Shown here: in pieces, positions 32,892 through 44,316 of the stretch
Numbering within the stretch: position 1 is the first letter of the stretch
How the letters are laid out: each line of letters starts with the position of its first letter
Assembly (NCBI RefSeq): GCF_900129875.1
Contig: NZ_FQXC01000002.1
Span: 186,001 to 250,000, forward strand
From: Marivita hallyeonensis
Lineage (GTDB): Bacteria; Pseudomonadota; Alphaproteobacteria; Rhodobacterales; Rhodobacteraceae
Direction: 5' to 3'
DNA: 64,000 nucleotides
Program-made: the position numbers and the translations under genes
Notes under the pieces: model-generated
Told to the model about the DNA's origin: nothing
What the model saw: only the letters and a program-made list of their open reading frames with translations
Database searches by the model: none

Positions 32892-33926
32892 ATGGCGGAC
32901 GCCATCCCACACTACGCCACGCTGCGCACATTTGCGCTGTGCGCCTTGGCCAGTGTCGTGGTCATCGGTGCACTGTTTTTGACCAAGTCCATCATGGCGC
33001 CACTGGTTCTTGCGTTTGTCTTTGCCGTGGTGCTGGCCCCCATTCACGACCGTTTGTGTCGGATGCGCATCGGCAGTGGTCTGGCAGCGGCGCTCGTTTT
33101 GCTTGCCCTCTTGGTGATCGGCGCCATCAGCGCGTTTCTGGCAGAACCCATTGTCATCCGCATCCTCGATGAAATCCCGAACATTCAGCGCGAAGTCCGC
33201 CTCTTGATCTTCGAAATCAGAGCCGAGTTTCGTGATCTCGAAGAACTCAATCAGAATGTCCAGTCCATGATGGGCACGGATGACGACGGCGACAGCAGCA
33301 GCGCGTCGCCGATGCCTAGTCTTTTCGACGCGGTGTTCTTTGCACCCCTGATCCTGGGTCAGGCCCTGATGTTCTTTGCAGCCTTGTTCTTCGCATTAAC
33401 GGAAAGGCGGGCCATTTACCGGTCGGCGGCGCGGGCGTTTCGTAAAGCCTCGCTCAAAAGCCGTCTGGCCCGGGCCGAACGTGCCGTCGCGCGCTATTTC
33501 GGTACCGTGGCTCTCATCAATATCGGCTTGGGCATCTGTGTCGCCATTGGGCTGTCGGCGCTGGGGCTTCCCATGGCTTATGCCTGGGGTGCTGCGGCGG
33601 CCGTGATGAACTTCCTGCTCTACGTCGGACCGGCGATCATGGTGGGCGCGCTTCTTCTTGCCGGTATTCTGAATTTCGACGGGTTGATGGTCATCGCGCC
33701 AGCGGCGGTCTACCTCGCCATTAACGCGATGGAAGCGCAGTTCGTGACACCATCAGTTGTCGGAAAACACATGGATATCAGTCCGTTACTGGTCTTCCTG
33801 TCAGTGGTTTTCTGGCTCTACCTCTGGGGTCCGGTGGGCGCTATCGTGGCCATCCCGCTTCTTGTTTTCTGCGCCGGATACCTGTCCCAAGAGGAAACAG
33901 AGCAAAGCAGGTTATCAGCGGCCTAG
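32892..33926 (+). CDS. AI-2E family transporter
   Basis: A 344-residue inner-membrane protein with about seven or eight helices. It has the PerM/AI-2E pattern: an N-terminal pair of helices with PLVLAFVFAVVLAPIHDRL, a central amphipathic segment (EIPNIQREVRLLIFEIRAEF), and conserved C-terminal helices with FLLYVGPAIMVGALLLAG and NAMEAQFVTPSVVGKHMDISPLLVFLSVVFWLYLWGPVGAI. Some members export autoinducer-2, others act in sodium-proton exchange; the role here is open. The last four bases overlap the convergent hflX gene. Confidence 0.85.
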   Translation: MADAIPHYATLRTFALCALASVVVIGALFLTKSIMAPLVLAFVFAVVLAPIHDRLCRMRIGSGLAAALVLLALLVIGAISAFLAEPIVIRILDEIPNIQREVRLLIFEIRAEFRDLEELNQNVQSMMGTDDDGDSSSASPMPSLFDAVFFAPLILGQALMFFAALFFALTERRAIYRSAARAFRKASLKSRLARAERAVARYFGTVALINIGLGICVAIGLSALGLPMAYAWGAAAAVMNFLLYVGPAIMVGALLLAGILNFDGLMVIAPAAVYLAINAMEAQFVTPSVVGKHMDISPLLVFLSVVFWLYLWGPVGAIVAIPLLVFCAGYLSQEETEQSRLSAA

Positions 33927-35197
33927 AGCGTCTCGAACTGGCGTGCGTCTTTGGCGGACCAGCGCACCGTGAGGTGGTAGCCGTCTTCGTCCTGTTGCTC
34001 GGACTCGACGAGGGCTTTGTCAAATAGCCACGCCCGTTTGCGACCCTCATCGAAGGTGAGGTGAACAAGCTCCACCCGCCTCTCGCCCACAAGCACACGG
34101 TTGACGGCCGCAAGGAGCGCGTCCAACCCCTCTCCGGTCAGGGCGGATGTCGCATAGACGGCGTCGTCCCGTTCTGCCCGAGTGAACGCCGCTTCGCGGT
34201 CTTCCGCAGGCATCACGTCGATCTTGTTCCAGACTTCAAGCATCGGGGTGGTTTCCGTCACACCCAGCGAATTGAGGATCTCCCGCACGTCCTGAGCCTG
34301 CTCCTCGGTTTCCGCGTGGCTGATGTCGCGGACGTGCAGGATAAGGTCCGCCGCCAAAACCTCTTCCAGCGTCGCCCGAAACGCGGCAACCAGCTCTGTC
34401 GGCAGGTCCGAGATGAAACCCACCGTGTCGGACAGGATGACCTCCGGCCCGTCCGGCAGCTTCACGGCGCGCATGGTCGGGTCAAGGGTCGCGAACAGCA
34501 TGTCCTTCGCCATGACCTCGGCCCCGGTGAGCCGGTTAAACAGCGTCGACTTCCCGGCGTTGGTGTACCCCACAAGGGCCACGATCGGATACGGCACCTT
34601 GGCGCGTGCCGCCCGGTGCAAGCCGCGCGTCTTGACCACCTTGTCCAGCTGGCGCCGCAGACGCACAAGTTGATCGTCAATCGCGCGCCGGTCCGCTTCG
34701 ATCTGGGTTTCGCCCGGACCACCGACAAAGCCCAGACCGCCACGCTGACGTTCAAGGTGCGTCCAGGCCCGTACAAGCCGCGTACGCTGATAGCTGAGCG
34801 CGGCCATCTCGACCTGAAGCACACCTTCCCGCGTCGCCGCACGGTCGCTGAAGATCTCGAGGATGAGGCCCGTCCGGTCCAAAAGCTTGACGCCCCAGGC
34901 CTTCTCCAGGTTGCGCTGTTGCACGGGGGTGACCGGGCCGTCGACCAGGACCAGTTCAATGTCCTGCGCTTTAAAAAGCGCCTCTAACTCATTGATTTTG
35001 CCCGAGCCAAACAACGCGCCCGGTTGAGGTTTTGGCAGCCGGACGACATCACTTCCCACGACCTCAAGACCGGGCAAGGCAGCCGCCAATGCCACGGCTT
35101 CCGCCAAGGCGGGTTCCGCCGCCCGCCGGGTGCGATCCGAAGTGATGTCAGGATGCAGAACCCATGCGCGGGTCACATGCGCCTTGTGTTCTTTCAA
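33923..35197 (-). CDS. hflX: GTPase HflX
   Basis: A 424-residue ribosome-associated GTPase that splits stalled or heat-damaged ribosomes. It has an N-terminal HflX-specific domain with [33 protein letters not shown], the P-loop GYTNAGKS at 210-217, [36 protein letters not shown] and NKID. It follows hfq with a four-base start/stop overlap (ATGA), the common hfq-hflX arrangement in proteobacteria. Confidence 0.96.
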
Positions 35198-35433
35198 CTT
35201 TCGCCTTCGCCGTCATAGAGATTGATCGGCTGTGCTGGCATGATGGTTGAAATGGCGTGCTTGTAGACAAGCTGTGATTGTCCATCACGGCGCAGCAGCA
35301 CACAGAAGTTATCGAACCACGTGATGACACCTTGCAATTTCACACCATTGATGAGGAATACCGTCACCGGCACCTTTGTCTTGCGGACATGGTTGAGAAA
35401 TGCGTCCTGAAGATTTTGCTTGTCGGATGCCAT
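35194..35433 (-). CDS. hfq: RNA chaperone Hfq
   Basis: A 79-residue Sm-like protein that pairs small RNAs with mRNAs. It has the Sm1 region [35 protein letters not shown] and the Sm2 motif [10 protein letters not shown]. The Sm2 motif is YKHA, as usual. Its own promoter probably lies in the 122 bases between it and trkH. It is coupled to hflX downstream. Confidence 0.97.
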
Positions 35434-35555: not shown

Positions 35556-37070
35556 TCAATCCTGCCAGAGATCCGGTGTCACAATCACCACCAAGGCTAG
35601 CAATTCCAGACGCCCCATGACCATCGCAATGGCGGCCACAAGCTTGGGCCCTGCCCCCAACTCGATGAAGTTCAGCCGCCCGGCCTCCACCACTTCGATG
35701 AGAGGTCCGCAATTCGACAAGACGGCCACGGCGAGCACCAGCGATTGCTCGAACGGGATGTTGAACGCCGCAAAAGCGATCGTGGTCGCCGCCAGCGTAA
35801 TGGCGAAAATCATGAAGAAAACCCAGGCGATAAAGGCGCCTTCGCGCCGCGTCCGCCGCGACACCAGCCCGGACCGGCCGATCGAGGACGGATGCACCAA
35901 TCGGTCCACCTCGCGCATTCCGTTGATGATCAGAGCAAAAACCCGCAGCAGCTTGACACCGCCAGCCGTCGTGGCCACCCCACCCCCGATCATCGCCAAT
36001 GCCATCAGGATCAGCCCCGGCGTCTCAAGCCCCGACCAGGCCTGCGCATCCACCCAATCGACACTGACGAACCCCGTGGTCGTGAGGAACGACAACACGG
36101 TAAAGGCCGCCCCCCAGAGGGCGCGCAACCCGGCCAACAAGTTGTCCTGATCGCCGATATCCAGCGCGGCGAGGAAATGCCTCAGAAACAGGATGACCGG
36201 CACCATCAGAACAATGGCAAGGCCCAACCGGAACTCGGGGTCAAAGAGCAGCCCCTGCTTTTCGGAACTGCCCGTATCCTTCGAAAACGTCATCCGCGAC
36301 AGCGCAAACATCAGGAACAGCGCCAGGATCACTTCGCCGGTAAAGCCGCTCGCCGCTCCTTCCGGCCCCCCGACCGGGGAAATTCCCGAGGTCGACATGA
36401 TGCTCATCGCATGGGTCAGCGCGACGAAGGGCGCATCTCCGACCACGATCAGCAAACACCAAAGCGCAAGCGTCAGAAGAGTATAGGTCGGCACCAGCAC
36501 CGATGCGCTACGCGCAAGACGGCTTGCCGGATCGGCCATGTCCCGCCGCGCTGCGCCCGCCACCAGATCCTGCCCCGGCTCGCGCAGTGAAGTGACCTCG
36601 AACCCGCCAAGGTTCAGGGGTGCAAGGATCGCCGCCGCCGCGACCCACATGAGCAATCCGCCCATCCAGCCCACCTGCGCCCGCCACAGGTGTTCCGCCA
36701 TCGACAACCGTTCGGGCGCGAAGAGCGGCAACCCGGTGGTCGACAGGCTCGACACCATCTCCACGTAGGCGTTCAGGAAAGACGTCGTCTGCACCGACTC
36801 GTAGAACGGCACGGCAAGAACAGCCGGCAAGACGATGAAGGTCCCCAGCAAGGCCAGAAGCTGCCGGATCGCGCTGCGGTTATGGGGCCGGTTGGCCAGA
36901 GCGAAAGCCACCAGCGCACAAAGAATGAGGCCGATTAGCCCCGAATAGAAGAAACTGCGTGCATCCTGAAAGGACTCGCTCCAAAGCGCCACGCTCGCCG
37001 GGAGGATCATCGACGCCGACGCAAGGCCCGTCAGCAGAAGCAGAAATGGCAGGCGGGACAGAACCGGCAT
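35556..37070 (-). CDS. trkH: TrkH family potassium uptake protein
   Basis: A 504-residue potassium channel subunit that works with TrkA. It has repeated M1-P-M2 units: P-loop segments such as SLSTTGLPLFAPE, MSTSGISPVGGPEG, LTTTGFVSVD and AVLSNCGP, each with a filter-like glycine. The Trk C-terminal glycine is in the last filter, and there are about ten hydrophobic helices. trkA ends three bases upstream of the start, so the pair is cotranscribed on the minus strand toward hfq and hflX. Confidence 0.93.
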   Translation of the reverse strand: MPVLSRLPFLLLLTGLASASMILPASVALWSESFQDARSFFYSGLIGLILCALVAFALANRPHNRSAIRQLLALLGTFIVLPAVLAVPFYESVQTTSFLNAYVEMVSSLSTTGLPLFAPERLSMAEHLWRAQVGWMGGLLMWVAAAAILAPLNLGGFEVTSLREPGQDLVAGAARRDMADPASRLARSASVLVPTYTLLTLALWCLLIVVGDAPFVALTHAMSIMSTSGISPVGGPEGAASGFTGEVILALFLMFALSRMTFSKDTGSSEKQGLLFDPEFRLGLAIVLMVPVILFLRHFLAALDIGDQDNLLAGLRALWGAAFTVLSFLTTTGFVSVDWVDAQAWSGLETPGLILMALAMIGGGVATTAGGVKLLRVFALIINGMREVDRLVHPSSIGRSGLVSRRTRREGAFIAWVFFMIFAITLAATTIAFAAFNIPFEQSLVLAVAVLSNCGPLIEVVEAGRLNFIELGAGPKLVAAIAMVMGRLELLALVVIVTPDLWQD

Positions 37071-37073
37071 CGA

Positions 37074-38450
37074 TCAGAAGAAATCGATGGAGACCTGCAG
37101 CAGGCGCTCGACCTCTGGCACGTCCTTGGCCAGCGTGAAGATCACCACCTGGTCGCCCTCCTCGATCACCATCGCACCGGTCGGACGCACGATCTTGCTG
37201 CCCTTGCGCACCGCGCCGACGATCACGCCTTCAGGGAAGTCGATATCGCGCATTTTCTGGCCCGCCATCGGTGACGTCGACAGAACCTCCGCCTCGATCA
37301 CCTCTGCCTCCGCATCGCCGATGGAATAGACCGCCCGCACCCGCCCGTGCCGGAAATGCCGCAGGATCGAACTCACCGTCACGGAACGCGGATTGATATA
37401 GGCGTCGATCCCCAGCGGCTCCATCAGCGGCTCAAGCGTCGGGTCATTGATGAGGGCAATCGCCATCGGGCAACCTTCGGATTTCGCCCGCACCGCGGCC
37501 AGCATGTTGACCTTGTCGTCGTCGGTCACACACAGCACCGCATCGGCGCGTTCGATATTTGCCTCCTGCAGCAGCGCCACGTCCAGCCCATCGCCGTGCA
37601 GCACAATCGTGCGTTCCAGCGCCTCCGCCGCCCGCTCCGCACAGACGCGGTTGCGCTCGATCACCTTGGCCCGGATACGATCCGCCCGCGCCTCGAGCTC
37701 CTTTGCCACGGTCAGCCCCACATTGCCGCCGCCGATGATGACCACGCGCTCCTGCTTGCGGTGGGTCTTGCCGAAGATTTCCAGCGCGCGGCGCACGTCT
37801 TCGTTGTGCACCATGATATAACAGGCGTCCCCGGCGAAGAGCTGATCTCCCGCCTCGGGCGCAAAGAGTGTGCCTTCCCGCCGGATGCCCACCACGATAG
37901 AGCGCAGGGTCGAGAACAGGTCCGTCAGCTGGCGCAACGGCGTGTTGATGATCGGGCAGTCATCGTCGATGGTCAGCCCCATCAGCGACGCCTCACCGTC
38001 AAGGAACTTCTCCGTGTCGAACGCCGCCGGAGCGCTCAGCCGCTGCAGCGCCGCCTCCGCCACTTCCATCTCGGGGCTGATCACCACGTCGATGGGCATG
38101 TGGTCGCGGCGGTAGAGGTCGGAGTAGATTGCTGTCAGGTAGGATTTCGACCGCAGCCGCGCGATCTTGCGCGGCACCTCGAACACCGAATGCGCGACCT
38201 GACAGGTCACCATGTTGACCTCGTCCGAATGGGTCGCCGCGATGATCATATCCGCATCGCGCGCACCCGCCTTTTCAAGCACATCCGGATAGGACGCAAA
38301 CCCGGCGATCCCTTGCACGTCAAGGCTGTCCGTCGCCCGCCGCACCAGGTCGGCGTTGTTGTCGACGACAGTCACATCATTGCGCTCTCCTGAGAGATGC
38401 CGCGCAATCTGCCAGCCAACCTGACCCGCTCCGCAGATGATAACCTTCAT
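37074..38450 (-). CDS. trkA: Trk system potassium transporter TrkA
   Basis: A 458-residue cytoplasmic gating subunit with two tandem RCK units. The first Rossmann motif is VIICGAGQVGWQIARHL at the N-terminus, with an acidic VVDNN, and the second is VVIIGGGNVGLTVAKEL around residue 233. Each RCK is followed by a TrkA-C domain (SPMAGQKMRDIDFPEG is in the second). It binds NAD(H) or nucleotides and controls TrkH. In many alphaproteobacteria ntrX lies directly upstream; here that position holds other genes and then an ntrX fragment. Confidence 0.94.
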   Translation of the reverse strand: MKVIICGAGQVGWQIARHLSGERNDVTVVDNNADLVRRATDSLDVQGIAGFASYPDVLEKAGARDADMIIAATHSDEVNMVTCQVAHSVFEVPRKIARLRSKSYLTAIYSDLYRRDHMPIDVVISPEMEVAEAALQRLSAPAAFDTEKFLDGEASLMGLTIDDDCPIINTPLRQLTDLFSTLRSIVVGIRREGTLFAPEAGDQLFAGDACYIMVHNEDVRRALEIFGKTHRKQERVVIIGGGNVGLTVAKELEARADRIRAKVIERNRVCAERAAEALERTIVLHGDGLDVALLQEANIERADAVLCVTDDDKVNMLAAVRAKSEGCPMAIALINDPTLEPLMEPLGIDAYINPRSVTVSSILRHFRHGRVRAVYSIGDAEAEVIEAEVLSTSPMAGQKMRDIDFPEGVIVGAVRKGSKIVRPTGAMVIEEGDQVVIFTLAKDVPEVERLLQVSIDFF

Positions 38451-38830
38451 GGCGTTCGCCCGTACCCGGGCCCCTTGGCTGTGACTTGAAGAGGTGTGTG
38501 ACAGAGCCTCGCTGTGGGGTCAATTCCGGAGGGCGCGTGTTTACCGGCGCCAAAAACCTCGCTTGGTGCAAAGAGACCGAAAAATGTCTGAAATCTGCAC
38601 AGGTTAAGTCGCACAATTCCGGAAACGGAGCGTCTCCATGCTGACACCAATGAATGCTGAGGACCGTCTACGCCGTCGATACGCCCATTGATCCAAATCA
38701 ACAAAAATCTGCGGCGTACATGGGAGTGTAGGACCTCCGAGTAAATGGCCTTGGCGCTGGCCTGAAGGGCCGGAGACGTAAGCCCTAGTTCCAAGCCGTT
38801 TGCTCAGCAAAACAGAAGACAGGTGACGCT
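38451..38830. other. 380-base gap with one FNR-type site
   Basis: Between the divergent trkA start and the small lipoprotein gene I see no credible coding frame. The decamer CAATTCCGGA occurs near 38521 and 38610. The FNR-type box at 38688-38701 is listed separately. The rest has no structure I can name. Confidence 0.6.
38688..38701 (+). promoter_or_regulatory. FNR-type (FnrL/DnrD) binding box
   Basis: TTGATCCAAATCAA is a perfect match to the FNR consensus TTGAT-N4-ATCAA. It lies 130 bases upstream of the lipoprotein start. In a class II layout (box centred near -41.5) the transcript would start near 38736. It suggests control by oxygen limitation, and possibly nitric oxide if a Dnr-type protein binds. 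Confidence 0.72.
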
Positions 38831-38989
38831 ATGAAACTCTTTGCAAGTTCCCTTCTCATCGGGGCCATTCTCGCCATGTCCGGATGCACGGAGCCTGACA
38901 CATACCCGGTAACGGGTATCGAGTGTGATCCGAATGATCCGGTGCAAGACATGGATGCAAGCGAATGCACCGCGGTGTCGGGGATTTAG
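38831..38989 (+). CDS. tiny predicted lipoprotein (52 residues)
   Basis: The frame encodes a signal (KLFASSLLIGAILAMSGC) with lipobox AMSGC, Cys19 being the lipid-modified residue. A mature part of about 33 residues follows, rich in Asp, Glu and Pro and with two further cysteines (VTGIECDPNDP and DASECTAVSG). AGGTGA precedes the ATG by six bases. It sits under the FNR-type box and ahead of the phosphoribosyltransferase gene. I do not recognise the family. Confidence 0.72.
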   Translation: MKLFASSLLIGAILAMSGCTEPDTYPVTGIECDPNDPVQDMDASECTAVSGI

Positions 38990-39031
38990 AGCGACATTCA
39001 GGGATGACTTGCTCCACGGGAGGAGGCGTGC

Positions 39032-39700
39032 ATGGTCGTCTTTCTGAACCGCGCTCACGCGGGTAAGGCCCTGGCGGAGGACATTGCCCGACGCAACTAT
39101 CCGGATCCCGTGGTCCTCGCCTTGCCGCGCGGCGGAGTACCGCTCGGCGCAGAGGTTGCCCGACGCCTGAATGCACCGCTCGACCTGGTGATGGTCCGCA
39201 AGATCGGTGTTCCGTCCCGGCCCGAATTGGCTGCAGCCGCAGTCGTTGATGGCGCGGACCCCGAGATTGTCTTGAATGAGGACGTCATGCGCATGGCAGG
39301 TCTCGACCGGGACGATATCGACAGGCTCGCTCAAGCTCAGCTTGAGAAAATCGCGCAGCGCAGGGAGCGCTACTTCAAAGGGCGCGTGCGTCAGGAGATC
39401 GCTGGCAAGACTGCAATCCTTGTGGATGACGGAATCGCCACCGGCGCGACAACCCGCGCGGCACTGGCCGCGGTGCGTCGCCAGAAACCAGCCCGGCTGG
39501 TGTTGGCAGTGCCCGTCGGGCCCGACGACACGCTGCGCGCTTTGAAGGATGAGGTCGACGAGGTGATCTGCCTTGAGACACCCGAATTCTTCAATGCAGT
39601 TGGCGCACATTACAGGGAATTCTCACAGGTCTCCGATGAAGATGTTGTCCGCATCCTGCAAGACCTGGACTCCGTGTCCGATGGGAATGGCGGCACCTGA
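39032..39700 (+). CDS. phosphoribosyltransferase family protein
   Basis: A 222-residue type I PRTase-fold protein. It has an N-terminal GKALAEDIARR, LALPRGGVPLGAEVARRL, the PRPP-binding loop AILVDDGIATGATTRAAL and a C-terminal EFSQVSDEDVVRIL. The group is often found with erythromycin esterase, universal stress or anaerobic-response genes, and its substrate is unknown. ATG at 39032 has GGGAGGAGG nearby. It lies 42 bases after the small lipoprotein gene and probably shares its FNR-type promoter. Confidence 0.82.
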   Translation: MVVFLNRAHAGKALAEDIARRNYPDPVVLALPRGGVPLGAEVARRLNAPLDLVMVRKIGVPSRPELAAAAVVDGADPEIVLNEDVMRMAGLDRDDIDRLAQAQLEKIAQRRERYFKGRVRQEIAGKTAILVDDGIATGATTRAALAAVRRQKPARLVLAVPVGPDDTLRALKDEVDEVICLETPEFFNAVGAHYREFSQVSDEDVVRILQDLDSVSDGNGGT

Positions 39701-39893
39701 GTTTCGGCCAGGATAGGTGGTTGCGCTTGGGTCGCAGCCGCTCAGCGAGGGGCGGCATTAGGGCGTGTCTCACGTCCGAGTTGAAGCCACATGGCACCGA
39801 TTTTCGACCTGACGTTCTGCACATCGACATCAACGAATTCGGACAGGTTGTCTGGTGGCGACGCGTGCCAGATGACGGACTCGCGTAACGTGC

Positions 39894-40652
39894 TCAAATT
39901 TCCGCCAAAATGGTTGCCACAAGGCCGGTTGCACTCAGGGCGATGAGCAATCCGAACACCACCCTTTTGTACTGCCCGGGCTGCGCCGACGCGAAATGCC
40001 GTGACCCTAACCAAACACCGGCGGCCAGCAGTGGCACAGACGTGAAAAAACGAGTGATTGCAACGGTATCGTAATAGCCCGCGTAGATGAGCAGCGCGCA
40101 GGCCCAGAGATCCGCGAAAAACAAATACGCGATCATCGTCGCGCGTATCGAAGTCGCTCTTGCGTCAGAGAAATTCAGAAAAAGAGCCAGCACGAGACCA
40201 CTCAACGCTGCCGCACCGTTGATGACGCCAACAAACGAACCGACCACGGCGTAGGATGTTTGGGAAAAACTGAAACGCCGCGTTCCTGTGAAGATCAGAT
40301 AGACGCTCGACAGAAAGACAAAAGACAACGCGAGTATCCGCAGGGTCGCGTCGGGAAAGTATCCAAGAAGGAAGATACCGATTGGTGTACCGATTGCACC
40401 AGTCACCAACAGGGTTCCAAGTGCACTCCAATTCACGTCCCGAACGATGCCACGCGCTTGTACAGACGACGCGGCCAACTCGAGCGCGATCGACAATGGG
40501 ACAATCTCGGCAAGTGGCAACTTGAAGGACAGTCCCGCAAACAACACCCCGGTGAACCCAAATCCAGAGAAACCCCGGACGTACGACGCCGCAAAAAGAA
40601 CGGTCGCATAGAAAAAGGTATCGAAGACAGATAGGTAAAAAAGGTCTTCCAT
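39894..40652 (-). CDS. TauE/SafE family permease
   Basis: A 252-residue inner-membrane protein with about eight helices and the TauE-type duplicated pattern: SYVRGFSGFGFTGVLFAGLSFKLPLAEIVPLSIALEL in the first half and VGSFVGVINGAAALSGLVLALFLNF in the second. The substrate is unknown, and the family exports small organosulfur or other anions. Its base composition looks lower in GC than its neighbours by eye. It is separated from the PRTase gene by 193 bases that show no gene. Confidence 0.8.
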   Translation of the reverse strand: MEDLFYLSVFDTFFYATVLFAASYVRGFSGFGFTGVLFAGLSFKLPLAEIVPLSIALELAASSVQARGIVRDVNWSALGTLLVTGAIGTPIGIFLLGYFPDATLRILALSFVFLSSVYLIFTGTRRFSFSQTSYAVVGSFVGVINGAAALSGLVLALFLNFSDARATSIRATMIAYLFFADLWACALLIYAGYYDTVAITRFFTSVPLLAAGVWLGSRHFASAQPGQYKRVVFGLLIALSATGLVATILAEI

Positions 40653-41054
40653 CGAATGCTCAGAGGATTTGCGGTGAAAACGCTTCGGGAAGCGCTGTGC
40701 AGAGGCAAGATGAGTCCAATGCTAATACAGGTTTTCGCATCTGAGTTGACTTTGAAAACACTTCACAGCGACATGAGAGACGAGAACTTAGCCAAAAATC
40801 ACAGCCAGGCCGCTCGGCGCTTATCCCATTCCCTCACCTCCTTCGTTTCCTACACTTACTTTGCACCTCATCGCGCACCACCCTCTGGATGGCTTCGATC
40901 ATCGCGAAAACGGGCCGCTTGACCCTGATCTGGATTAATCCCCTAGGAACCGCTCGCTGCTTGGTGCTTTGACATTCGCTTTCGGCGCGGCGCGATCCGA
41001 AAGCGTCGGAATCCTCACCTTGATCGTTCTGCACGGGACCTAATTATTGACAAT
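40653..41054. other. 402-base gap without a recognised gene
   Basis: This AT-richer stretch lies between the divergent TauE and rhomboid genes. Short open frames here lack conserved motifs or good starts. One small perfect inverted repeat (CGCTTC-GG-GAAGCG near 40680) is the only structure I see; promoters for both genes must lie here. Confidence 0.55.
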
Positions 41055-41654
41055 ATGGAAACGAAAAACCGAATGCGTGTCATCCTCTTCAGGGTCGCGG
41101 GGCTTGCAATGTTCGTTGGCGCATTGTGGGTCATCCAGATCATAAACTGGGCGACGGGCTATAGCCTCAACACCGCATTCGGACTGTTGCCGCGCCACCC
41201 GGAAGGCTTGGACGGCATACTCGGGATGCCAATGCTCCACGGCAGCTTCAACCATCTCATTTCGAACACGCCACCCCTCTTGGTGATGGGCTGTCTGCTT
41301 GTATCAACGGCCACACGCGCGCTTGTCACTGTGAATAGCGTGATCGTTGGCGTCGGCGGCGTGCTGGTCTGGCTGTTTGGCAGTTTTGCCATCCATGTCG
41401 GCGCGTCCGGATTGGTGTTTGGATGGTTCGGCTTTCTGGTAACACGCGGTCTTGTCGACAGGTCGCCAATCACTCTTGGCGCTGCACTGCTCGTCGGCGC
41501 GATTTATGGGTCGATCCTATGGGGCGTTCTCCCCGGCCAGCCGGGTGTCTCATGGGAAGCGCATCTTTTCGGTACAATTGCAGGCGCGATCGCGGCGATG
41601 GTCGTCCGCAGCCACGTTCACGCGCCGCGTTTGCGAAATGTGGAGACCCGGTAG
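41055..41654 (+). CDS. rhomboid family intramembrane serine protease
   Basis: A 199-residue inner-membrane protease with about six helices. The catalytic pair is Ser118 in HVGASGLVFG (GASG motif) and His170 in SWEAHLFGTIAGA. The oxyanion and fold residues in LHGSFNHLISNT are present (His67, Asn71). Rhomboids cut transmembrane segments of target proteins, and no substrate is suggested by context. Its ATG lies close after an AT-rich stretch with no clear ribosome site. It converges on the ntrX remnant. Confidence 0.85.
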   Translation: METKNRMRVILFRVAGLAMFVGALWVIQIINWATGYSLNTAFGLLPRHPEGLDGILGMPMLHGSFNHLISNTPPLLVMGCLLVSTATRALVTVNSVIVGVGGVLVWLFGSFAIHVGASGLVFGWFGFLVTRGLVDRSPITLGAALLVGAIYGSILWGVLPGQPGVSWEAHLFGTIAGAIAAMVVRSHVHAPRLRNVETR

Positions 41655-41702
41655 ACCTGGCGCCAACGTGCTCAGGACCGGATCAACAGGAATATTCAAA
41701 AT

Positions 41703-41775
41703 TTAACAAACACTTAATAGGTCCACTTCGGACCCAATGTTTCGCGTGCGAAACAATAGGGCCAAAACGGACCTA
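41703..41775. other. Hairpin cluster between rhomboid and ntrX remnant
   Basis: Nested inverted repeats: TAGGTCC (41718-41724) with GGACCTA (41769-41775), a local GGTCC-ACTTC-GGACC hairpin (41720-41734), and GTTTCGC-GT-GCGAAAC (41739-41754). A TTAA-N7-TTAA motif (41703-41717) also lies here. This is most likely the old transcription end of ntrX plus the rhomboid terminator. Confidence 0.5.
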
Positions 41776-41780
41776 TCCAG

Positions 41781-42122
41781 TCACGACGCCGCTTCGGCCC
41801 CCTCTTCGAGATACGCGACGCGGCTGCCCGCTTTGGAGCTTGTCACCACGCCCAGTGACTTCAGCTTGCGGTGCAGCGCGCTGCGTTCCATGCCGACGAA
41901 GCTCGCCGTGCGGCTGATGTTGCCGCCGAAGCGGTTGATCTGGGTGAGCAGGTATTCCCGTTCGAACGCCTCGCGCGCCTCGCGGAGCGGCATGGTGGCG
42001 AGCGTGCCCGACAGGACCACCCGGCCCTCCTCGTCCGCCGTGGGCGCCGTGTCCTGCGGAAGTTCGCGGGCCGAAATGTCGCCCGTCCCCTCACCCAGGA
42101 TCAGCACCCGTTCGATCACATG
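41781..42122 (-). pseudogene. ntrX: ntrX 3' remnant (NtrX C-terminal domain only)
   Basis: About 114 codons encode the C-terminal end of the response regulator NtrX: VIERVLILGEGTG (end of the AAA+ region), then the Fis-type DNA-binding domain MPLREAREAFEREYLLTQINRFGGNISRTASFVGMERSALHRKLKSLGV. A full NtrX has about 460 residues with receiver and sigma-54 AAA+ domains, which are absent. Upstream of 42122 the frame continues as unrelated sequence to a GTG at 42176. In related genomes ntrX is followed by trkA; here 3.3 kb separates them. Confidence 0.82.
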
Positions 42123-42249
42123 AAGCACCCATTGTGCGACGCTGCGTTGAAGGCGTTGCCGGAAAAGCGGCGGCACTACATGTCCTCCCCGACCGCTGCC
42201 AACACGATCATAGCTTCTCCGACGGCCAAACCCCGACCCGCTTTGATGG

Positions 42250-44316
42250 TCAGCGTTTGGGACTCAGTTCCTTCGAGTGGAAGATGTCACCGGTCAACCA
42301 CGCCGGCCAGTCTCTTTCAAAAAACGACCTTGCGCCACCATGCTTGCGATTTGCACGCGAGGACACGACCAGATGGTCGCCATCGTACTGCACGATCAAT
42401 TGTTCTTGTTTGTCGGCGTCCCGTTCCGCACGAAAGCGGGCATCGGCGATGGGTCCCTTGACAGTTTGGGGCAAAGCCTCGCCCTCGGGGTCGCAAATTG
42501 CGCGCGCTCCACGGCTTCCGCCACCTTGTGCAATATAGGTGTCGAGCGCTGCGAGCACGGCCTCTGACGCCAAGGCCATTTGCTGCCACTGTAGGACACG
42601 TGCGGCCTCGGATGGGCGCGACACGGTGATGCCGTGCTGTCTGATTTCGCTGTTCAATCGCTGGGCTTCACGACGTGCCGCTGCCACGTCGGTGGGGGTG
42701 CATAATATGCCCGCCTTGTCGCTCATCCTCGCCTGGATTTCCGCGCGAACACCTTTGACGGACAGGCGGCCATTGTTGGTGAGCACCTTCTGGAGGTGTT
42801 CAACGGCATGGGCCACTGCGGAGGTCACGTCGTCTGTACACGTCGGTGCGCCAAGTGCGCCGATATGCTCGGCCACGCGCGTTCCGAACACTTGTCCGGC
42901 ATTGAGCGCCGACCCCCCTGGCCGTGTTGCACCATGGGTGCCTGCGGCCTCACCCACGGCGTAGATGCCCGGCACATTGGTACACCCCCATGTGTCGACG
43001 GCGATTCCGCCATTCATGTGCTGGTGGTTGACCGCGAATTCCAGCGGGTCCTTGGTGATATCGACCTTGTAGCGCCTGTAAAGTTCAATCGCGAGCGGGT
43101 TCATGTGGCGCAACCGATCAATGGGCAAAACCTGATTTGCCCCCGCGCTGCGCAGATAGGACGCCACATCGTCATCCAGCCGATCGAGGCTGAAATCCCG
43201 ATCAATCGCAAGTGGGTTGCGATTGAAGTCCATGAAGACCCGCCGCCCGGCTTGTCCTTCCCGAAAGATTGCCAAATCAATGAGGCTTGACTGAAAATCC
43301 AGCATTCGGCTCGCATGGAACGGCCATTGATAGCCTTTGCGAAAAATGTTTGAGGCCATCTCTTGGGTCGAGCGGTAGTACTCGGCCAGAAAGTGATGTT
43401 CGCCCCCGTCGGCATCAACCGAATAGATATGCGGGATGACCTGCACATAGGTGCCGGAGAGGTTCCACGGGAACCCTTCTCTCCGCGTGCCGATACCGAA
43501 CTGGTTTTCAGTAATGTTGGTCAGTTCCAACCCTGTCTCAAGTGCAAGACCGAGTGTTCCGAAACAACCGTTCGGGAAAACGCTGTCGCGATATAGCTCG
43601 CCCGGCCCGCCAGCAGCCAGGACCAGCGCGGAACAGGCATAGACCGTAAGACCATAGGGATTTGTTTCGGTGCTGTCCTTGGAACGGATCGCCAGCACAC
43701 CACAAACACGGCCCTTATCCCTGAGAACCTTGACGACAGTCGTTTGGTTGAAAAACGAAATGCCCAGGCGGATCGCCTCTTCGGCCAAGACCTTGACCAT
43801 CAACCGGGATGTGCGCGGCCCACAAGACGTCGCACGACCGACCTCGTCGTGATCTGTCTGGTAGCGCAGCGTGCCGCCCAGGTGATCCTGCGGCAGAGGA
43901 AGGCCAAGGTATTGAAGCGATGCCATCGCACGGACCGAACCGACCGCTTCGATATAGGCCATATCTTCGTCCATCGCGCCGCCCGCACCGATCGAGGCGG
44001 CCAGATCGAAAAAGTTGTCGCCCTGGTCCTTGGTGTTGGCGGTGTGCAGCGTTTGCTTGTCGGATCCTGAGCAGGCGGATGTTCCGCCCCACGCGCTTTG
44101 GCTGAGTATGACGACATCCACGTTTCGCCGCTTCATCTCCACAGCAGCGCGCAGTCCCGCAGCGCCGCTCCCGACGACGATGGCGCCAGCGCGGTGCAGT
44201 GGAATGGTGTAGCTGTTGACGACCAGCATTTCGGCTGCACCCGGTTCAGAGCTCAGCCGTGGCATTGCCACGTCGGTCAACGCATCGAGGATGTCTTGTG
44301 GGACACAGAGGGCCAC
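42250..44316 (-). CDS. FAD-dependent oxidoreductase, fumarate reductase/L-aspartate oxidase type flavoprotein
   Basis: A 688-residue flavoprotein. The ADP-binding motif is AIVVGSGAAGLRAAVEMKRRNVDVVILSQS, then GGTSACSGSD, CSALVLAAGGPG and the C-terminal FAD block HMNGGIAVDTWGCTNVPGIYAVGEAAGTHGATRPGGSALNAGQVFG. The layout follows the succinate dehydrogenase/fumarate reductase flavoprotein family. No iron-sulfur or membrane-anchor subunit is encoded nearby, so it probably works alone or with an unlinked acceptor. It is the last gene of the catabolic operon, 21 bases after the Gfo/Idh gene. Confidence 0.82.
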   Translation of the reverse strand: MALCVPQDILDALTDVAMPRLSSEPGAAEMLVVNSYTIPLHRAGAIVVGSGAAGLRAAVEMKRRNVDVVILSQSAWGGTSACSGSDKQTLHTANTKDQGDNFFDLAASIGAGGAMDEDMAYIEAVGSVRAMASLQYLGLPLPQDHLGGTLRYQTDHDEVGRATSCGPRTSRLMVKVLAEEAIRLGISFFNQTTVVKVLRDKGRVCGVLAIRSKDSTETNPYGLTVYACSALVLAAGGPGELYRDSVFPNGCFGTLGLALETGLELTNITENQFGIGTRREGFPWNLSGTYVQVIPHIYSVDADGGEHHFLAEYYRSTQEMASNIFRKGYQWPFHASRMLDFQSSLIDLAIFREGQAGRRVFMDFNRNPLAIDRDFSLDRLDDDVASYLRSAGANQVLPIDRLRHMNPLAIELYRRYKVDITKDPLEFAVNHQHMNGGIAVDTWGCTNVPGIYAVGEAAGTHGATRPGGSALNAGQVFGTRVAEHIGALGAPTCTDDVTSAVAHAVEHLQKVLTNNGRLSVKGVRAEIQARMSDKAGILCTPTDVAAARREAQRLNSEIRQHGITVSRPSEAARVLQWQQMALASEAVLAALDTYIAQGGGSRGARAICDPEGEALPQTVKGPIADARFRAERDADKQEQLIVQYDGDHLVVSSRANRKHGGARSFFERDWPAWLTGDIFHSKELSPKR

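Follow-up and report, generated by a model that had tools for sequence, protein, structure and literature searches.

The window analysed here is a stretch of 64,000 nucleotides from Marivita hallyeonensis, corresponding to positions 186001-250000 of a 776-kb contig (C10) in a genome of 4.19 Mb assembled in 20 contigs. The window carries hflX, hfq, trkH and trkA, followed by three small cargo genes, a palindromic element and the 3' end of an ntrX gene. The latter is fused abruptly to a large block of catabolic and transport genes that runs beyond the end of the window (Table 1).

Table 1. Features of the trkA-ntrX region, numbered from the first base of the window unless a contig or stretch is named
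Feature	Position	Strand	Remarks
hflX	33923-35197		NCBIfam HflX, above cut-off
hfq	35194-35433		NCBIfam Hfq, above cut-off
trkH	35556-37070		NCBIfam TrkH, below cut-off
trkA	37074-38450	-	NCBIfam TrkA, above cut-off; conserved far-side neighbour
trkA-side cargo	38451-41702		Three genes
Phosphoribosyltransferase gene	39032-39700	+	trkA-side cargo
TauE/SafE gene	39894-40652	-	trkA-side cargo
Rhomboid-like gene	41055-41654	+	trkA-side cargo
Left repeat copy	41703-42118		Self-BLAST and whole-genome search
Palindromic element (ELEM)	41703-41778		Closely follows the ntrX stop; forms the repeat's outer edge (76 bp)
18-bp core palindrome, TGTTTCGCGYGCGAAACA	41738-41755		Pattern search
3' end of ntrX	41781-42118	-	Codons 361-471 and stop
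Chimeric ORF	41781-42176	-	Putative gene; 131 aa, of which 20 derive from foreign sequence and 111 make up the NtrX tail
Junction of ntrX and inserted block	42118/42119		Non-homologous; alignment stops abruptly
Inserted block, window part	42119-64000		Catabolic and transport genes; runs on to C10:267274
FAD-binding oxidoreductase gene	42250-44316	-	Last of a gene row pointing at the fragment
Right repeat copy	C10:267275-267690		39,572 bp from the left copy, beyond the window end
Intact ntrX	L005:5354-6769	-	471 aa; on C10, outside the window

The 111 NtrX residues of the chimeric open reading frame (ORF) are identical to residues 361-471, the C-terminus, of an intact NtrX encoded elsewhere on the contig, and the 20 residues preceding them are unrelated. 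In the fragment, the match to the NCBIfam NtrX model does not begin until position 359 of 452 (model positions 359-452), and Pfam detected the Fis-type HTH_8 domain alone (E 3.6e-11); receiver and sigma-54 interaction domains were found in the fragment by neither Pfam nor the NtrX model. Since AAA_lid_14 occupies residues 310-390 of intact NtrX, the AAA+ lid is reduced here to about its last 30 residues. An earlier note on this DNA had described ntrX as cut down to its AAA+ end and Fis-type DNA-binding domain, and this description stands: HTH_8 and the last ~30 lid residues are what remains, and no full-length ntrX lies upstream in the same frame.

The chimeric ORF starts at a GTG inside the foreign sequence, and GGAGG lies 7 nt before this codon; upstream matches of at least 5 bases to such a motif occur at ~5% of start-like codons. 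The ORF follows the FAD-binding gene after 73 bp on the same strand, so that a transcript shared with the catabolic genes is conceivable. A simple scan of 41500-42400 recognized neither a terminator nor a promoter. The predicted product may be a free NtrX-type DNA-binding domain. As the adjacent genes are transcribed towards the fragment, the catabolic operon ends at this point rather than beginning there, as had been stated.

Self-BLAST of the surrounding 95 kb revealed two directly repeated copies of a 416-bp sequence with 97.1% identity (E given as 0.0), a match that is not due to chance. The repeat is made up of the 338 bp at the 3' end of ntrX and the 78 bp that follow the stop codon (to 41703), the latter stretch being absent from the earlier note. 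Similarity breaks off abruptly on both sides, at 42118 (inside ntrX) and at 41703. The suspected insertion or rearrangement breakpoint is therefore real, 42118 being a non-homologous join; unrelated sequence had been placed beyond 42122, and the abruptness of that break was rightly seen, but the last matching base is 42118.

Searching the genome with the ntrX tail returned one further place, which lies on the same contig at a distance of 39.6 kb (C10:267353-267690, 97% identical). The ntrX found there matches the NCBIfam NtrX model over its full length (749 bits against a curated cut-off of 600) and has the Pfam domains Response_reg, Sigma54_activat, AAA_lid_14 and HTH_8. It adjoins ntrY, ntrC, ntrB and dusB; an NtrY_N domain was detected in its neighbour by Pfam, and among the neighbouring products DusB scored above its NCBIfam cut-off and NtrC and NtrB below theirs. 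By its full-length model match, its domains and its ntrY neighbour, this copy is an NtrX response regulator. The question of whether an intact ntrYX exists elsewhere, with its 3' end duplicated here, is thus settled by the whole-genome search: a 471-aa ntrX stands beside ntrY, and the 97.1% repeat is found at both ends of the block. Because the intact gene lies at the block's other end and the repeat at both, the fragment is a duplicated scar and ntrYX has not been lost. It is best read as a leftover copy from the entry of a gene block, an ordinary and clearly readable scar of gene transfer.

The two repeat copies differ at 12 of 416 positions, three of them non-coding and nine in the ntrX part, and all nine coding differences are synonymous third-position changes. 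With a synonymous share of ~26-28% among the single changes possible in this stretch, nine out of nine would arise without constraint with a P of about 6e-6 to 1.2e-5, which suggests that both copies diverged as parts of a working ntrX. An old decaying pseudogene was ruled out, since decay would bring amino-acid changes and the copies differ synonymously only. Most simply, the two tails would be alleles of two related strains rather than the result of decay after copying in this genome. Selection acting on the tail ORF would produce a pattern that looks alike, and this bears on a different explanation, an old duplication within this genome in which selection has preserved the tail ORF in the role of a small DNA-binding protein. 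Such an origin agrees with the open frame, the intact HTH_8 domain and the GGAGG 7 nt before the GTG, as well as with the purely synonymous changes, but it leaves the 39-kb unrelated block between the copies unexplained. Moreover, direct repeats within one genome tend toward loss or homogenisation, and congeners carry no second ntrX tail. We consider this explanation quite improbable.

An attempt to pick the native copy by its distance to congeners failed, the copies differing too little in their match counts. Both are about equally distant from all 16 congeners (counts differ by at most 4 of 307-338 sites per congener), so that neither can be named foreign. The right copy retains a CCGAACC-like flank that is found in several congeners and is missing from the left copy, which may give a weak hint as to which one is native.

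Between the repeats, from 42119 to C10:267274, 33 genes were called, one of which (63632-64270) was scanned only in part. Their families include FAD-binding, GFO/IDH/MocA, LacI, GMC oxidoreductase, ABC and aldehyde dehydrogenase; enoyl-CoA hydratase, CoA-transferase, two sets of TRAP components and short-chain dehydrogenase; and ketopantoate reductase-like, AMP-ligase, TctABC, LysR and methyltransferase. Four of the 33 genes match no Pfam family. Two related LysR genes stand in opposite orientation (L004:11853-12788 and L004:13130-14086; 72% identical over 205 bp). At its left end the block resembles a collinear cluster in other genera at up to 74%, with matches in 48 of 394 genomes, and its right end is matched in 19 of 394 (own genome included in both counts). 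The strongest DNA matches to the two ends, among plasmid records and the 394 family genomes, reach just ~73-75%, which reveals no near source for the cargo. The G+C content in 2-kb steps is not decisive: it is 58-61% over that part of the cargo which lies in the window and 59-64% over most of the flank. A mobile-gene remnant at 42119-42420 was considered and rejected, the best other match being 39 bp long at E 1e-4.

No integrase, transposase, replication or partition family was detected by Pfam among the 33 called genes. Genome-wide, a search confined to Phage_integrase, the tyrosine type, gave 16 matches, none of them on the 776-kb contig C10. One known kind of genomic island sits at the 3' end of a conserved gene, carries an integrase and leaves the target gene complete. 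The present locus is like such islands in that cargo lies between direct repeats of a gene's 3' end and the target gene is complete, and one could propose a site-specific island that used the ntrX 3' end as attachment site and rebuilt the gene; a gene 3' end repeated at both flanks is a resemblance of just this kind. Unlike such islands, however, the block came with no tyrosine integrase that we could find, either on C10 or among the called cargo genes, which disfavours an integrase-driven island. In addition, the repeat, at 416 bp and 2.9% divergence, is long for an attachment site, and the ntrX 3' end is not reused in relatives (second tail in 0 of 16 congeners). A site-specific island is accordingly very unlikely.

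Gene order around ntrX was compared, one gene at a time, with the corresponding contig stretches of 16 congeners, the stretch of G011 being extended. Both trkA and ntrX are on the stretch compared in nine of them, as neighbours across a spacer, at a distance of 0.27-4.8 kb in eight and of 21.3 kb in G011; in the other seven the contig stops between the two genes. The order ntrY-ntrX-trkA-hfq-hflX, which had been taken as usual, is thus right in that trkA neighbours ntrX in 9 of 16 congeners, but trkH stands between trkA and hfq, and a spacer separates trkA from ntrX. The order trkA, trkH, hfq, hflX is conserved in congeners. This synteny comparison, in which none of the 16 congeners showed a second ntrX tail, agrees with the duplicated scar suspected earlier. 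Across 394 family genomes, two tail matches at E 1e-20 or better occur in three (own genome, G037 and G345). G037 and G345 are incomplete, fragmented assemblies (79% and 76% complete).

On the trkA side of ntrX, 73-76 of the 76 bases of the palindromic element are matched in 12 of the 16 congeners and 60 in G009; none was found in the stretches covered of G010, G014 and G016. The spacing from element to ntrX is 1.1-1.2 kb in eight congeners. The element directly abuts ntrX in the own genome (G000), G003 and G006. In G001 a gene with an FGE-sulfatase domain (L056:8751-9851) lies between element and ntrX, and a similar stretch was detected by tblastx in eight more congeners. Within 400 bp outside the element on the trkA side, just three comparisons among 15 sequences (G009 left out) gave a match. 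In our genome this side holds the small cargo, whose rhomboid-like protein has relatives at up to 76% identity, spread over many Rhodobacterales, among the best 80 of 112. Together, these results show that a cargo slot of variable content between trkA and ntrX is a general feature of the genus, and that duplication of the ntrX tail is rare. As a separate observation, the contig stops at most 3 kb downstream of ntrX in six of the 16 congeners (L057, L060, L067, L068, L069 and L071, all among the seven in which it stops between trkA and ntrX), against 1.3 expected (P about 0.001, from rounded contig counts); there may be repetitive sequence downstream of ntrX in those six.

We propose, with a probability of roughly 0.55, that the fragment was left as a scar by a horizontal acquisition in which a second cargo allele was brought in by homologous exchange at ntrX and a non-homologous join at 42118. 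The flanking repeats, the intact ntrX, the slot in relatives, the synonymous-only changes and the lack of a detected tyrosine integrase all support acquisition. DNA from a closely related strain would have entered the cell, carrying a large cargo beside its own element and ntrX 3' end. On the ntrX side, this donor would have recombined by homology in ntrX or beyond, leaving the ntrX of ntrYX complete, and its far end would have joined the resident ntrX at 42118 without extended homology. The resident ntrX tail, the palindromic element and the older small cargo (rhomboid, TauE and phosphoribosyltransferase genes) would have stayed beside trkA, the outcome being two cargo alleles in tandem with an ntrX tail between them. 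The order of events, which copy is foreign, and the use of two crossovers (one homologous, the other illegitimate) instead of a circle are inferred.

The locus has two features expected of a scar of homology-facilitated illegitimate recombination (HFIR), a homologous segment at one end (416 bp, 97.1%) and a non-homologous join at the other (42118), and the kind of event is already known. In a study of E. coli conjugation, such recombination is rare, at 3e-10 per recipient cell, a rate that concerns small linear DNA and not 39 kb (PMC3240628). An HFIR-like model has been proposed for orphan immunity genes in the T6SS effector-immunity arrays of Vibrio cholerae (PMC5361080). Our locus is like those arrays in having one homologous anchor, one non-homologous end and no integrase in evidence, with the old 3' part orphaned behind new cargo. 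It is unlike them in that its insert spans 39 kb and carries mainly catabolic and transport genes, in that it shows only a single event, and in that what was orphaned is the tail of a regulator, without known advantage.

The main rival, to which we give about half the weight of acquisition by homologous plus illegitimate recombination, is a circle carrying the 416-bp ntrX tail that entered the resident ntrX through a single homologous crossover. A plasmid cointegrate formed by a single homologous crossover is a Campbell insertion of this type and has the same final map: the exact arrangement observed, with direct repeats at both ends and one complete and one truncated ntrX, would follow from that one crossover, with no need for an integrase. 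Such a circle must, however, already have captured an ntrX tail from a near relative. A plasmid search with 41703-64000 yielded no near match (80 of 72,556 records, each over at most 10% of the query) and, unlike a plasmid cointegrate, the called cargo genes include no plasmid backbone family, neither replication nor partition, with the four that match no family at all to be borne in mind. We consider the circle less probable than acquisition by the two crossovers.

The map is known from the assembly alone, and the copies differ as alleles of two strains would, which fits an assembly error or a mixture of two strains. Against this, the genome is listed as 99.99% complete with 0 contamination, the contig is 776 kb long, and the join at 42118 links non-homologous sequences, which is unusual for a misassembly driven by repeats. 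We regard an assembly error or strain mixture as very unlikely, and acquisition by homologous exchange with a non-homologous join remains our preferred reading.

The element at the outer edge of the repeat was then characterized. Elements of this kind, 60-76 bp long and built of palindromes, stand at 17 places in the own genome with a conserved core, the 18-bp sequence TGTTTCGCGYGCGAAACA, which we take to resemble parS sites. The outer 76 bp are predicted to fold into a hairpin of -39.4 kcal/mol on the minus strand (z -5.1) and -27.9 kcal/mol on the plus strand (z -4.5); an Rfam match of this hairpin to a microRNA model, at 32 against a cut-off of 130 bits, was taken as chance. The core is present in 28 of the 120 family genomes examined (own included) and a reversed control pattern in none. 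A literature search for the 18-bp core string returned no match, and we make no claim that the element is unpublished.

In four other genera the core adjoins RepB/ParB-like genes, which match NCBIfam partition_RepB at E 2e-15 to 4e-19 without reaching its curated cut-off; on contig C17 of the own genome it stands after such a gene, and on the three plasmid records examined among 76 with a match it lies 1.5-1.7 kb from annotated ParB genes. From these neighbours it looks like a putative parS of plasmid type. In other genera (L215, L216, L217 and L218), 2 to 5 copies of the core, with up to 2 mismatches, are grouped within 0.5-4 kb next to ParB-like genes, and these groups are likely to be centromere clusters. 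Integron attC-like cassette sites, suggested by two copies in the slot of G015 and by clusters elsewhere, were dropped as an identity for the element, the clusters adjoining ParB-like genes.

Stretches holding the element were compared between the own genome and G015, 14 from each (L187-L200 and L201-L214, the G015 set covering 280 kb), all chosen for containing the core. Eleven of the 14 own stretches are orthologous to one of the 14 from G015, and 11 of 12 ortholog-bounded intervals with an element in the own genome have one in G015 too. Most copies, being at shared positions, do not look mobile. The motif TTAA-N7-TTAA, presumably a CtrA-box-like motif, occurs at a constant distance from the core (at least 7 of 8 bases) in 8 of 17 own copies and 5 of 16 G015 copies, the figure for random places being 0.0001. 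It is missing from all four copies located on C17 and the G015 counterpart of that contig.

A difference in length of more than 300 bp between the two genomes was found for 7 of the 12 element intervals, compared with 12 of the 52 further intergenic intervals in which both gaps measure at least 60 bp (p 0.023) and 19 of 125 of all other intervals (p 0.0017); for convergent pairs only, the figures were 2 of 4 with the element versus 3 of 18 (p 0.21). With a 500-bp limit, the same three comparisons gave p values of 0.051, 0.0024 and 0.026. The length excess of element intervals is modest, and the control intervals lie near elements.

Two other element loci were followed through the congeners, and both have gaps of variable length, as the trkA-ntrX slot does. 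At L188 (C9:235.7 kb) the flanking blocks are 158 bp apart in the own genome, whereas gaps of 0.5-3.0 kb were measured in 14 of 16 congeners; the element keeps with the same block in 13 of 16. At L191 (C9:920.5 kb) gaps were measured in 13 of 16 congeners and vary between none and 29 kb; the element is within the aligned block in only three, which speaks against a simple rule. Cargo sits on one fixed side of the retained element at two of three loci examined and not at the third. A parS-like element kept at many shared chromosomal positions might mark slots that repeatedly take up foreign cargo, trkA-ntrX being one of about a dozen, with partition-type DNA binding or the hairpin biasing where cargo settles. 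We consider this unlikely; if it were true, the finding would gain interest. The parS-like sites of the genus are the part that might repay a specialist's attention.

For the organism, these results mean that ntrYX is not lost, and that a large catabolic block can enter the chromosome while both neighbours stay intact and no integrase is found. With 416-bp direct repeats at its ends, ordinary recombination is predicted to be able to remove 39,572 bp and leave one complete ntrX. The acquisition of the block should therefore be reversible.
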